The notes under the pieces are model-generated. The model ran no database searches and was not told where the DNA came from. It worked only from the letters and a program-made list of their open reading frames with translations. Source: a virus. Taken from it: a stretch of 28,938 nt of DNA. Shown here piece after piece: positions 25-22,430 of this stretch (within the stretch, counting starts at the first letter, position 1; each line of letters opens with the position of its first letter). The DNA is taken from the IMG/VR virus record IMGVR_UViG_3300034135_000006, positions 1 through 28,938 of that record, one strand, 5' to 3'. The translations under genes were made by a program, and so were the position numbers.

Positions 25-426
25 CTATTTCGGCAGGTGTGAAAGCCACTGAGTTATAGCCGCGCCTAAGACGCTGCTCAGAAGGAAGCCGAGCAGTAGC
101 AGGACGATGTCCCATTTGCGGGTGCTGCTCTTCTCCGTCTGCGAATTCCTTAAGCGGTTATGCTCTTCGAGATTAGAGACGCGGTTCTCTAGCCTCTCGA
201 ACCTAACGAGCAGACCGTTGCCGTTCTTCAGCATGGTCTCGACGCCGTCGCAGTCCTGGCGGAGCCGCTGAAATTCCCGGTCGAGCGAGCCGAGCGTTAC
301 ATGCCGCTCTGCGTCGTCAAACCTTTCTCCCACGCGCTGCAAGCCCTCGCGGTGAAGCGCGAGCAGCGAGATGAGCGCTTGAAAGGTCGCGGGATCGTTT
401 AAGTTGGGCGGTTGCGATTGGGACAT
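25..426 (-). CDS. Coiled-coil protein with C-terminal membrane anchor
   Basis: 133 residues. The first 100 are strongly charged and helical with a heptad-like pattern (about 28-95). Residues 106-126 form one hydrophobic membrane segment, followed by a few residues ending LPK. A GGAG ribosome site lies about 8 bases before the ATG at 426. The layout (cytoplasmic or periplasmic coiled coil plus one C-terminal anchor) is seen in several small phage membrane proteins, including some holin- or spanin-like proteins and anchored accessory proteins. No specific family is recognised. It follows the CHASE3 gene with an 18-base gap, so the two membrane proteins are probably co-transcribed and may act together. 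A lysis role is possible from position (after the tail fibre) but is inference only. Confidence 0.75.
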   Translation of the reverse strand: MSQSQPPNLNDPATFQALISLLALHREGLQRVGERFDDAERHVTLGSLDREFQRLRQDCDGVETMLKNGNGLLVRFERLENRVSNLEEHNRLRNSQTEKSSTRKWDIVLLLLGFLLSSVLGAAITQWLSHLPK

Positions 427-444
427 TTACCATCTCCGGGTTCG

Positions 445-1290
445 TTAGTTCGGGAGGGCGCGCGCGAGCATCTCAAGCTCTTTCAGTAATCTCTCCGACT
501 CTGAAAGAATCGCATCAAATGTCAGGTCTTCTTTCTTCATCAATGCCCTGACGCCCTCCGTGTGACGCAGGATCGCTTCACTCGCGGCCTGTCTCTCTTC
601 CATCTCTTTCACCTTATCGACCATGTCTTTATTGACGAGCGCGCCTATCAGGAAGAGGAAGATCAAAGCGAGAGGCAGCGGCGTAATCAGCATCGCGAGC
701 GTTTGAACCCATTGCGCCCTCACATTACCCGCCCGCGCGCGGAGCAGGCGCATCTCCTCGTTTTCCATCCTTGTTATCAGCTCGCGTATCCCGTCCATCT
801 GCCGCTTGCCGGTCCCGGTGAGCATCGCCTGGCGCGTCACGTCAAGGCCCTGCGCCCCGCGCAGCTCTATCCCCGTCGCAAGGGTCGCGAGGCGGGCATC
901 TATCGCCTCTCTCACCTCGCGAATGAGCGCGCGCTGGTTCGGGTTGTCCGCAGTAAGCGTCTCCATCTTTTCTACCTGCGCGTACGCGCTCGCCCGCGCC
1001 CCCTTGTAGTTGTCCAGGTAATCGCCATCTTGAGTGATGACGAACCGCGACTGCCCCGTTTCCGCCTCGACGACGGCAGCATGCAGCCCGCGAATCTCCC
1101 CTATGACCTGCCGCGTGTGACTCACCCACGCCTGGTAATGGCGAAACCGAATCAGGTTGTAGACGATGAGCGCGAGCGTGAGCACGCCCGCAAGCCCGAG
1201 CGCGACGAACGCGGCTATGCTCTTTTTGCTTATGTAGATTCGCCGCCCGCGCAGGTAGCGCAGGCTCTCAAGAATCGGCTTTACTGCCAT
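445..1290 (-). CDS. Orphan CHASE3-domain membrane protein
   Basis: 281 residues. A short basic N-terminus is followed by membrane segment 1 (about 25-45), an extracytoplasmic helical domain (about 55-190), membrane segment 2 (about 196-219) and a roughly 60-residue coiled-coil tail. The domain carries the CHASE3 signature: VVEAETGQ (73-80), then F-x-I-T and DYLDNY (90-95), then DNPNQR and a GTGK-x2-MD-x-IR segment. CHASE3 is normally the periplasmic sensor of histidine kinases, cyclase-type proteins and chemoreceptors. Here the protein stops after the short tail, with no HAMP, kinase, GGDEF or methyl-accepting output domain. It sits in a phage late region between a methyltransferase and a second membrane protein. 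A terminator lies between it and the upstream gene, so it may have its own promoter. GGGGG lies about 12 bases before the ATG. The domain call is firm; the role is unknown. Confidence 0.85.
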   Translation of the reverse strand: MAVKPILESLRYLRGRRIYISKKSIAAFVALGLAGVLTLALIVYNLIRFRHYQAWVSHTRQVIGEIRGLHAAVVEAETGQSRFVITQDGDYLDNYKGARASAYAQVEKMETLTADNPNQRALIREVREAIDARLATLATGIELRGAQGLDVTRQAMLTGTGKRQMDGIRELITRMENEEMRLLRARAGNVRAQWVQTLAMLITPLPLALIFLFLIGALVNKDMVDKVKEMEERQAASEAILRHTEGVRALMKKEDLTFDAILSESERLLKELEMLARALPN

Positions 1291-1399
1291 TAGCTGCGTT
1301 GCCCCCTTCCGGCAGAATCACGGCAACTTTTTGTGAGGATGCTATCTGAGCGGCTGTAGTCTCAGAAGCGGGATCGGCTATCATTCATAGTTACCGGGC

Positions 1400-1436
1400 A
1401 AAAGAAAACGAGGCCGCTCCGTTGAGCATGCCTCGT
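1400..1436 (-). terminator. Rho-independent terminator downstream of the methyltransferase gene
   Basis: Read on the minus strand, ACGAGGC (1436-1430) pairs perfectly with GCCTCGT (1415-1409). An inner GCTC/GAGC stem and a short AACG loop add to it. The sequence TTTCTTTT follows directly. It separates the methyltransferase from the CHASE3 gene. The rest of the 1291-1531 gap shows no convincing gene; it also contains a second 7-bp hairpin at 1535-1553 that overlaps the methyltransferase stop codon. Confidence 0.75.
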
Positions 1437-1531
1437 CGATACAGGACATTTGTGGCGCTGGCCCAGAGCTGGATTATAGAGCTTAAACCGGGCCACTATT
1501 CAGCGGTCGTAAACATTAGCAAAACGACGAT

Positions 1532-2367: not shown

Positions 2368-5300
2368 TTAGAACGTCGAAAGGGCCGAACGCTTCCAGCC
2401 GCCGCTTGTCTTCACGTACACGAAAGAATCATCCCACCTGAAATCGCCTTGATTGCCCGTGCTGTCTGCGCTGCCCGAAGGCGTCAGGGATGAAAGGTTG
2501 ATGGCCCGGGCCTTGAAGTCTCTGAGCGTTCCGGGCGTGCCGTTGTTCACCTCGACGACGCCCGCCGCGTTGCGGTCAAGCCCCGTATCCGCAGCCTGCG
2601 TCGCGTCGTTCGTGTTAGCCCATGCAAGCTGCCTGTTGCTCGCGAGCCTGACGCCGACGTTGCCTATCCTCGCGTTGTTCTGGCTGAAGTCGTAGAAGGT
2701 GAAGTTGCTCGACCCGCCATACATCAAGGTCGAGGAGTCGAACTTCAAGCCGTTCGGATAATTCGGGCTGACGCTCAATATGCCCGTGACGGAAAGCCCG
2801 TTGTCGTCGAACCGCCCGCGCTCGGTCCTGTTCGGCAACATCAAGATGGGCTGTCCCGGCCCGCCCGTGCTCAGCCCCGTGCCTGCGCCGCCGTACGTCT
2901 CTATAATTCCGAAGCCTGCCGACGAAGGCGGCAGCGCCTGGAAGAAAATATCATTGGTGCCGACGACGCTGACCTTAGCTACGCGGAATATGCCGCCGCC
3001 GCCGAAGACGAAATCCGCCGACGGGAAGCCCGTCACCCCGGAGGTGTCGAGGTCGAGATAAAGTTTTGTAGCGTCTTTCGTCAGGTTTGCCGTTACGGTG
3101 ACGGTCGCGAAGCGCGGGGAGTCTCCTGTCTTTACAGCAGAGAGGTTCCCGCTCCCGGCATCCGAAATGGTGCCGTTGAGGTTCCCCGTGAGCATGTTGC
3201 CGCCGTAGATGTTGTTATCGGCACCGCTCGTAAATACCAGCCCGAAGTCCTGCACCTTAGGCGTGCGCGTGTCAGTAGCTACGTTGTCGTGAATCGCGTT
3301 GCTGTCTCCGCTCACGCCGAAGCCGCGAGAGTTATCGACCGCGCTATTCCCTGTAACGGTGTTGTAGCTCCCGAGAATACTGAAGCCTACCGAGGCGGAG
3401 CCCACGACGGAGTTACCTTCTATGACATGGCCCGTGCCGCCAATGATCATGCCCGCGCCTGCCGAGCCCCTCACTGTATTTGCGCTCACCGTCCAGTCAT
3501 GCGCGCTCTGAAAGAGCACGGCGGCAGATACGGGTGATATGATCACGTTGCCGCTGAACGTCCCTCCGACGGAGGGCGTCCCGGCGTTCTCGTCGCCGAG
3601 CAGAGCATAGTTACAGCTCACGAAGGTATTGCCGGCCACAGTCGTTTGAACGTCCCCGCCTGCGGCCACGCCTGCGGTCCCGGAGTTTTCAAACGTGTTG
3701 CCGATGATCTTATTGCCTACCATCGCGCCGGGCGTGACGAGGAAGAACTCCACGCCGTTGAAGATGTTCGATGTGGTCGGCTGCTTGATATGGTTGAAGC
3801 TCACCTCGCAATAGCAGGCGTCTACGATGGCAAGGTTTTCGGCAAGCGTTGTGCCTTCGGAGACGTTATGGGTGATCGTGATGTTCTGCGTCGTCGTGCC
3901 GCCGATGATGCCCATGCGCTGGCAGCCAGAATCGAAGTGGCAATTGCGCACAGTCGAATTTATAGAGTCTTCTATCTTGAAGCCCTGCGCGTTCTGGCCG
4001 TTCGATACAAAGCCTATGTCGCTTATCGTGATGTAGCTGAGCCCGTTCCACGCGATCAACTGAGACTCTGCCAGGCCGCTGTCGAAGCCCGCGAGCGCCT
4101 TCAAAAAAGATGCCTTTCGCCCTGCTCCTAAAACGGTGACGCCCTCAGACGGCAGGAAAGGCGCTGAAATCGCGTATGTGCCGGGCGGAAGGTAGACTAT
4201 CCCCCCGACCGCTGCCGCCGCCGCGTCTGCCGCCTGAAGCGCGGCCAGATCGTCTGTCGATCCGTTGCCTAGAGCGCCAAACGCCTTCACGTTGAAGAGC
4301 TGCCCCGCTTTGTCTACGAGGGGAAGTGTCTGCGCGACGGTGAACGTGTTCGCCTGGTCCGTGTATGCGGTCGCTGCGTGCTGACGAGCTTTCGAGAGAG
4401 CGCCCGACCAGCCGAGCGTAAGCGCATTAGCGGAGACCGAGCCGGTCACGTTCGTGTCATTAACGACAGATGTGACTATGCTTGACCCGGAGGCGAGCTT
4501 TGAAAGAGCGATGGCAGCGCCGCTCGCTACGTCTGCGTTGACTATGCTCGCGGAGAGGTTGAGCTTGCTGTACGCGATTGCCGCGCCCGAAGCTATCTCT
4601 GTGTTCGTGATGCCCGAGAGCCGCGCGAGCGGAAGCGTGCCGCTCGAAAGGTCTGAAGCGGAGCGGGTCGTTATGTCCGCGAGGCTCGAAGTAGTTTTAT
4701 TGATCTGCGCCCATGTGTAATCGTTATTCTGCGCGGTCACCGCGCCCGTTCGCCCGAAGATAGAGGAGACCGCATCGAGGGGCGTCACGACGATCTGCCA
4801 TGAGGCAAGCTGGCTCGCGTCGTCTGCTATCAGGATGTAGGTCGCGCTAACGTCCGTGCGCACGCACCAGTCGCCGCGCTCGCCTGAAAGCGCAAGCATC
4901 GCGGCCTGCGACGCCACAGAGCCGAGAAACGAGCTGATAGCTATGGCCGGGAGATGCGACGGGTTTATCTTCCCCGCGCCGTCTAGTCCCGCGTACCCGC
5001 TCGCCTGGTCTTTGTTGGCAGCGTTCTCAGGGGTGAAGCCGAGCGAGTTCTGCTTCGCGTCTAATGCCGCTTGCAGGCTCGTCACGTCGCCTATGGCTAT
5101 CGCCGCTGGCGCGTATGCGTCTGCCGCCGTCGCCTTCAGGAATTTGCCTGCGTCTGCAAGCACGGGAGAAGGCAGAAGAGTCGTGTCTATGTTAAAAGTA
5201 GGGTTGCCGCCCGCTCCATTGCCGTTCGCAACCGTGAGCCGGTTCGCGGTCCCGGTGAGAGTTCGGGCCGCGAAAGTATCCGTCGCGGTCTGCACTATCA

Positions 5301-21655: not shown

Positions 21656-22162
21656 CTACACGTTGTAAGCGGTCACGGGCAGCGCGCACTCGGCTATGTG
21701 ACAGAGAGCGCCCGCCGCCTGGCCGTCGCCTGCATTCAACACTCTGAATTGTTGATGAGTGATCGAGCAGCCCAGGCCGAGGTCAATCGAATCTGCGAAG
21801 GCGGCGAGGATAGCGTCAATCTCGGCCCGAAAGAGAGACGCGCTCTCAAGCTCAGGGGCCGCGCTGTCTACGACGGCCATATGGCCGAAGAATTTGATCG
21901 TGTGCTCGACGCCTACGAGGTTGCTGAAACCGTCGAGTATCGGGATGCTTGTCGTATTGAACAGCATCCAGAAATGAGCGCGCGGCGGCGAGAAGTTGTA
22001 ATCCCCGACGAGCACTTTGAATTCAATGTCTCTGCCGTCGTTGACATAGCGCACGCGCGGGTACACAAGCTTTTCGCCCGACTCGCTGACGCCGATGCTC
22101 GGAATAGCTTTCAGAACATCCGAGCAGGCGTTCACGATTGTATCTATCGCGATTGTGCTCAT
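21656..22162 (-). CDS. Probable tail terminator / head-tail joining protein
   Basis: 168 residues. A helical N-terminus (IDTIVNACSDVLKAI) leads into a beta-rich body with YPRVRYVNDG, an IEFKVLVGDY strand, VEHTIKFFGHM and a C-terminal CHIAECALPVTAYNV strand. Size, fold pattern and position between the connector and the gp10-like gene fit a tail terminator or minor tail joining protein, which caps the tube and binds the head connector. I cannot confirm the family by motif. The start at 22162 has only a weak AAGA site. It is preceded by a 218-base region with hairpins and a broken small gene. Confidence 0.6.
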   Translation of the reverse strand: MSTIAIDTIVNACSDVLKAIPSIGVSESGEKLVYPRVRYVNDGRDIEFKVLVGDYNFSPPRAHFWMLFNTTSIPILDGFSNLVGVEHTIKFFGHMAVVDSAAPELESASLFRAEIDAILAAFADSIDLGLGCSITHQQFRVLNAGDGQAAGALCHIAECALPVTAYNV

Positions 22163-22184
22163 TCTTATTGATCGACGAGGTAGA

Positions 22185-22217
22185 CGTTCTGGTCTGCGGA
22201 TCCGGCAGACGAGAACG
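22185..22217. other. Imperfect hairpin upstream of the tail terminator gene
   Basis: CGTTCT-G-GTCTG and CAGAC-G-AGAACG form an 11-bp stem with one G/G mismatch around the loop CGGATCCGG. No T-run follows on either strand. The same gap repeats GTAGACGTT (22181-22189 and 22231-22239), has CGTCTACC in the opposite sense (22332-22339), and holds a 7-bp hairpin CTGCGAG/CTCGCAG near 22303-22323. Purpose unclear; it may shape the mRNA ahead of the 22162 start. Confidence 0.45.
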
Positions 22218-22237
22218 GCTACGCTCGAGGGTAGACG

Positions 22238-22430
22238 TTAATAGCTACGCGGGATCTCTACGCGGCTGAGCTTGCCCGCGCGGGCCTGCGCAGTTGCTTT
22301 TGGCTGCGAGGTGATCGCTCGCAGACGGAAGCGTCTACCAGTACTTCGTAGCTGTGAATGTCTGCGCACCCAGGTAACGCTCAACGAAACCGCCGCCCGT
22401 GAGTGAAGCGATCCATACCTCGGGAATCGC
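22238..22430 (-). pseudogene. Small gene split by a +1 frameshift
   Basis: Two minus-strand frames join into one plausible polypeptide. Frame one, from about 22430, reads IPEVWIASLTGGGFVER and YLGAQTFTATKYW, then stops at TAG (22337-22335). One base further, the next frame continues RRFRLRAITSQPK and ATAQARAGKLSRVEIPRSY to TAA at 22238. Composition on both sides of the junction is protein-like and the joined length is about 63 residues, usual for small connector-region proteins. No ATG, GTG or TTG start is available in the first frame, and it overlaps the 3' end of the connector gene. It may be a decayed gene, a sequencing indel, or true +1 frameshifting; the missing start favours decay or error. 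Confidence 0.4.

Follow-up and report, generated by a model that had tools for sequence, protein, structure and literature searches.

A tailed-phage CHASE3 protein without an output domain encoded among probable lysis genes

Results

The CHASE3 gene and its product

The window analysed here is the whole 28,938-nt stretch of IMG/VR record IMGVR_UViG_3300034135_000006. Near its start, the complementary strand carries a gene for a membrane protein with a CHASE3 domain, flanked by a Dam gene on one side and by the gene for a small tail-anchored protein on the other (Table 1).

Table 1. Positions of the CHASE3 gene, its parts and adjacent features in the window.
Feature	Position	Strand	Description
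CHASE3 gene	445..1290	-	846 bp, 281 aa; two TM helices, CHASE3, without output domain
CHASE3 domain	730..1134	-	Residues 53-187; predicted periplasmic four-helix bundle; PF05227 E=2.7e-35, 3va9 Z 20.3
TM1 of CHASE3 protein	1162..1218	-	Residues 25-43; hydropathy 2.68
TM2 of CHASE3 protein	634..690	-	Residues 201-219; hydropathy 2.59
Predicted cytoplasmic tail	448..633	-	Residues 220-281; modelled helical hairpin, without family match
Shine-Dalgarno-like GGAAGGGGG	1302..1310	-	5' of CHASE3 start; read from sequence
133-aa protein	25..426	-	Coiled-coil-like body and one C-terminal TM (residues 107-125); second cassette gene, directly 5' of DUF5675
Terminator-like hairpin and T-rich run	1399..1437	-	Between Dam and CHASE3 genes; -19.3 kcal/mol, z -3.0

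The original prediction, made from the sequence alone, described the gene product as a CHASE3 domain with two membrane segments, and proposed a profile search, a structure prediction and a search of phage databases as checks. The Pfam profile search matched PF05227 along positions 2-136 of the 138-position profile, scoring 121.7 bits, far over the curated cut-off of 28, and searching the record of the window itself placed the domain at the same site. Among solved structures, the sole phmmer match was 3va9 (E=1.8e-14), the sensor domain of the histidine kinase HK9. The predicted model of the protein has a mean pLDDT of 91.9, with about 98 across the CHASE3 domain, and superimposes on 3va9 with an rmsd of 1.5 over 127 residues at 29% identity; the structure matches listed for the model cover residues 44-195 and not the tail. 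As CHASE3 homologues (77 sequences) served as the alignment for the model, it is not independent of the PF05227 match. Taken together, the model, the 3va9 match and the hydrophobic segments identify a sensor fold of the four-helix-bundle type flanked by two TM helices, and the predicted architecture was confirmed. The codon usage of the gene (GC3 0.758) is like that of the structural genes and unlike that of the Dam and N6/N4 methylase genes nearby.

The domain had also been described as a full CHASE3 with four groups of motifs. All four are present, but with the changes R81S, G82R and P94N relative to homologues, so that the ETGQRG motif, which is common in close homologues and is not a formal Pfam family criterion, reads ETGQSR in the phage protein. 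Other positions conserved in the 77 homologues are mostly kept. R81 and G82 are present in 77/77 aligned homologues and are, with P94, invariant or nearly so; since the pattern used to find the homologues limited the first two positions to R or S and to G or R, these counts exaggerate their invariance somewhat. No homologue exceeds 29% identity to the phage protein over the aligned region, or 40% in the best segment of the domain.

Missing output domain

CHASE3 domains are inputs for kinases, cyclases and chemoreceptors. Neither Pfam nor an HMM of the dimerisation domain identified a cytoplasmic output module in the phage protein, and the 62 residues after TM2 had no Pfam match even at E≤10. 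The tail, originally described as a short coiled coil, is modelled as a helical hairpin (helices 204-253 and 258-278). Inspection by eye (SERLLKELEMLARAL) had suggested that the tail is a worn histidine-kinase dimerisation hairpin; an HMM of this hairpin built from 44 homologues gave -3.5 bits, and the candidate was rejected. Similarity of the head and tail of the protein to homologues was undetectable.

The original prediction allowed for a frameshift at the 3' end of the gene that would conceal an output domain. This was rejected, as the 25-426 protein is encoded by a separate gene that follows two in-frame TAA stops and has its own GGAG. Profile searches found no output domain in the 25-426 frame or in the next genes, and the window sequence is identical, with zero differences, in a second record (IMGVR_UViG_3300034005_000004) that possibly is not an independent assembly. 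The absence of the output domain thus stands.

Phage contig and lysis region

This second record, which contains the entire window unchanged, is a 62,962-bp phage contig that extends past the window edge. The contig carries genes of a tailed phage, including a large terminase, a protease-capsid fusion, a helicase and replication-initiation genes, and its tail fibre has a tail-repeat and a pectate-lyase-like region. Searched against 396 Acidobacteriota genomes, the capsid protein had two distant matches (31% identity). A repeat of ~220 bp is present in three copies in the contig, of which one is inverted and another is divided between the two contig ends (window 22162-22377; contig G001, 15762-15977, 40807-41026 and 1-135 + 62838-62962); the copies are 91-99% identical and moderately structured (z -2.1), with no Rfam match. 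The contig ends have 63 identical bases in common.

Beginning with the CHASE3 gene, the same strand encodes, with short gaps, the 133-aa tail-anchored protein, a 134-aa DUF5675 protein (E=1.4e-34, profile search), a 95-aa protein and an 84-aa protein with two hydrophobic segments, followed by DNA methylases. The 84-aa protein is a holin candidate by size and TM count. Profile searches gave no family match for the holin candidate or for the 25-426 protein; the latter had no XhlA/hemolysin Pfam match, it had a weak match to phrog_937 hemolysin (E=0.069), and its alignment to the coiled-coil/C-terminal-TM neighbours of other DUF5675 genes was weak (hhalign, 19% probability). In crAss-like phages, homologues of DUF5675 carry the annotation L,D-carboxypeptidase/transpeptidase and adjoin genes annotated as "lysis regulatory protein/holin" (annotations, not assays); no solved homologue of DUF5675 was found. 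Judged by architecture only, other viral DUF5675 loci encode small TM proteins, proteins with a coiled coil and a C-terminal TM, and lipoprotein-plus-TM proteins that resemble u-spanins.

The terminator-like hairpin between the Dam and CHASE3 genes suggests that the lysis genes are transcribed as one unit, with the CHASE3 gene first, although a scan of the region as a whole for the hairpin pattern was not above shuffled expectation. From its place in this gene order, the CHASE3 gene probably heads a lysis cassette.

Several other features were seen in the phage and in other viral loci. Directly 3' of DUF5675, many viral loci encode proteins of 147-162 aa with a lipobox-like N-terminus (SCAxRK or similar) and a C-terminal TM, which are candidate unimolecular spanins (L016:8402-8869, L023:8383-8850, L027:780-1223, L030:10387-10875 and others). 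A 278-aa protein with an N-terminal TM, a long helical body and weak DUF948 similarity is encoded downstream of the lysis region (L002:10154-10990), and the phage carries a phosphoadenosine phosphosulfate reductase-like gene (L007:1668-2528; phrog_424, E=1.4e-41) of an auxiliary or host-takeover type.

Distribution in phages and bacteria

No CHASE3 domain was found in 50,697 phage records, where tblastn at E≤10 also gave nothing credible, and the proposed phage-database search thus did not recover the same arrangement in other phages. There was likewise no CHASE3 above the cut-off in 79 other DUF5675-bearing viral records or in 27 terminase relatives, many of the records in both sets being fragments. 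Viral scans yielded four other CHASE3 genes, two with a histidine-kinase ATPase, one with GGDEF and one with a GGDEF-like C-terminus; because an ETGQRG-like motif was required, these scans would miss divergent CHASE3 copies. A fold search of viral models returned an ssRNA phage fragment named as a 4HB MCP protein (E=1e-3, fold-comparison TM 0.57/0.63).

In bacteria, 77 of the 80 closest homologues extend at least 263 residues beyond the matched region; two of the remaining three loci run off the contig and the third ends in an apparent PAS domain. The 42 CHASE3 matches in 149 Acidobacteriota genomes included one real short protein, of 299 aa. A second short frame proved to be an artefact of a masked stretch, and a further one encodes 158 aa with a partial CHASE3 domain. 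CHASE3 proteins without an output domain therefore exist in bacteria but are rare; none was found among phage lysis genes, and a literature search found no phage CHASE3 protein. The contig genes and these searches bear out the claims that the gene is of phage origin, lies late and is rare, and that its product lacks an output module. As to the further claim that the form is without precedent, no earlier case was found in phages, but more widely GlnX (see below) has CHASE3 and no known output domain, and the 299-aa Acidobacteriota protein has CHASE3 and no kinase ATPase.

Discussion

Interpretation of the CHASE3 protein

The observation is confirmed as such: a phage CHASE3 protein without an output domain is real, rare and tellingly placed among probable lysis genes. 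We tentatively interpret it as a membrane regulator of lysis timing, which we consider a serious possibility rather than a probable outcome because the gene order comes from a single phage population and the partners are no more than candidates. The protein would sit in the inner membrane, its gene lying among the lysis genes of a tailed phage and presumably co-expressed with them. Two TM helices would anchor the CHASE3 four-helix bundle on the periplasmic side, with the short helical hairpin facing the cytoplasm. A periplasmic or envelope signal, or plain dimerisation, would be relayed via the TM helices to partners, with the tail-anchored 25-426 protein or the holin candidate as candidates, and this contact would restrain or trigger lysis in the fashion of an antiholin or lysis-inhibition sensor. 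As no enzyme or kinase-control module is attached, action would most likely be by protein contacts within the lysis cassette.

The lysis-timing interpretation draws on the CHASE3 profile and fold, the one-strand gene order, the annotations and contexts of DUF5675, the hairpin and the structural-gene-like codon usage, and by analogy on T4 RI, a precedent in logic and not in homology (PMC8385771, PMC11413866). Against it, the CHASE3 gene is found in one phage population only and is missing above the cut-off from other DUF5675 records, the activity of DUF5675 is an annotation, and the holin candidate and the 25-426 protein are without a family match. A sensor of lysis timing acting with the 25-426 neighbour was among the original suggestions; the adjacent DUF5675 gene and the holin-sized two-TM gene past the window edge add to it, while the regulation itself is what we infer. 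A role as a spanin was rejected, as both termini are expected to be cytoplasmic. The further proposal that the sensory half of a bacterial receptor has become a lysis sensor in this phage, reading an envelope signal and setting the timing by direct contacts with holin-type partners in place of phosphorylation or cyclic nucleotides, appears rather doubtful. If lysis timing is the function, a sensor bundle would be useful alone, with its output cut away, and the protein would connect envelope sensing with lysis timing, in a way open to experiment, beyond the few phages studied for lysis inhibition.

The same architecture could serve as a decoy or dominant-negative partner, in which the CHASE3 bundle and TM helices would, late in infection, associate with CHASE3-bearing kinases, cyclases or chemoreceptors of the host and thereby silence or lock them. 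Receptor sensor domains, many of which are dimeric, have this fold, the domain is intact over its length, and the further modules of 77 of the 80 closest bacterial homologues would be open to such poisoning. The low identity to any homologue and the changes at R81, G82 and P94 speak against pairing of this kind, however, and the late position among lysis genes fits a lysis role better. We regard this function as unlikely; if true, the phage would use the protein to inhibit signalling in its host. It is similarly improbable that the gene is a captured and worn receptor fragment without a selected function, that is, a moron in decay. Such wear could account for a head and tail without similarity to homologues, for the lost signature residues and for the lack of relatives in other phages, but the reading frame is uninterrupted, its ribosome site is good and its codon usage phage-like, the domain retains its high profile score, and the tail is not a kinase relic.

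A two-TM inner-membrane protein with a periplasmic domain might also act in superinfection exclusion or envelope modification by barring the entry of a second phage's DNA, and T4 lysis inhibition does tie superinfection sensing to a periplasmic protein (PMC8385771). The gene lies in the late lysis region and not among early genes, though, and the only match to an exclusion family (SieB, E=0.061) was to a bacterial CHASE3 protein and not to the phage one, which makes this function very unlikely. A free receptor that signals to a separate soluble partner of the host or phage, and not to lysis proteins, would resemble GlnX, which has CHASE3, lacks a catalytic part and acts on soluble PknG (PMC9769921), but this is highly improbable given the four TM helices and two periplasmic domains of GlnX and given that the genes scanned include no adjacent kinase or binding-protein gene.

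Comparison with known systems

The phage protein has its sensor fold in common with HK9 of Rhodopseudomonas palustris (3va9). Unlike CHASE3 receptors such as HK9, it has no HAMP, PAS, kinase, cyclase or MCP module, and the RG of ETGQRG is replaced by SR. The 299-aa Acidobacteriota protein (L225:5941-6840) is similar in having CHASE3 (E=1.2e-27), no ATPase domain and two hydrophobic segments by eye, but it retains the vestige of a histidine-kinase dimerisation hairpin (HMM i-E 8.8e-6) without the His, whereas the phage tail has no such hairpin. A prophage CHASE3-GGDEF gene (L228:2839-4062) also has CHASE3 downstream of lysis genes; it differs in encoding 407 aa with a GGDEF-like C-terminus and in lying between lysis genes and an integrase-like gene, as a moron with an output. 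The prophage-like contig in question (L228:758-4062 and 4151-5167) encodes lysozyme-like, Rz/Rz1-like and CHASE3-GGDEF proteins, with the integrase-like gene on the other strand.

We know of no antiholin with a CHASE3 domain. The T4 antiholin RI is a periplasmic, holin-binding protein that is believed to delay lysis in response to a signal that it senses (PMC8385771, PMC11413866). RI differs from the phage protein in having a cleavable signal peptide and no second TM or cytoplasmic tail, and we do not claim homology between them. GlnX of Corynebacterium glutamicum is a CHASE3 membrane protein with no known output domain that acts on the soluble kinase PknG; it has 501 aa, four TMs and two periplasmic bundles, and its gene is cellular and shares an operon with glnH and pknG (PMC9769921). 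Its CHASE3 match is borderline (E 9.5e-5; PMC9769921). GlnX and the phage protein are thus both CHASE3 membrane proteins without a catalytic output, of which GlnX is the larger and has four TMs.
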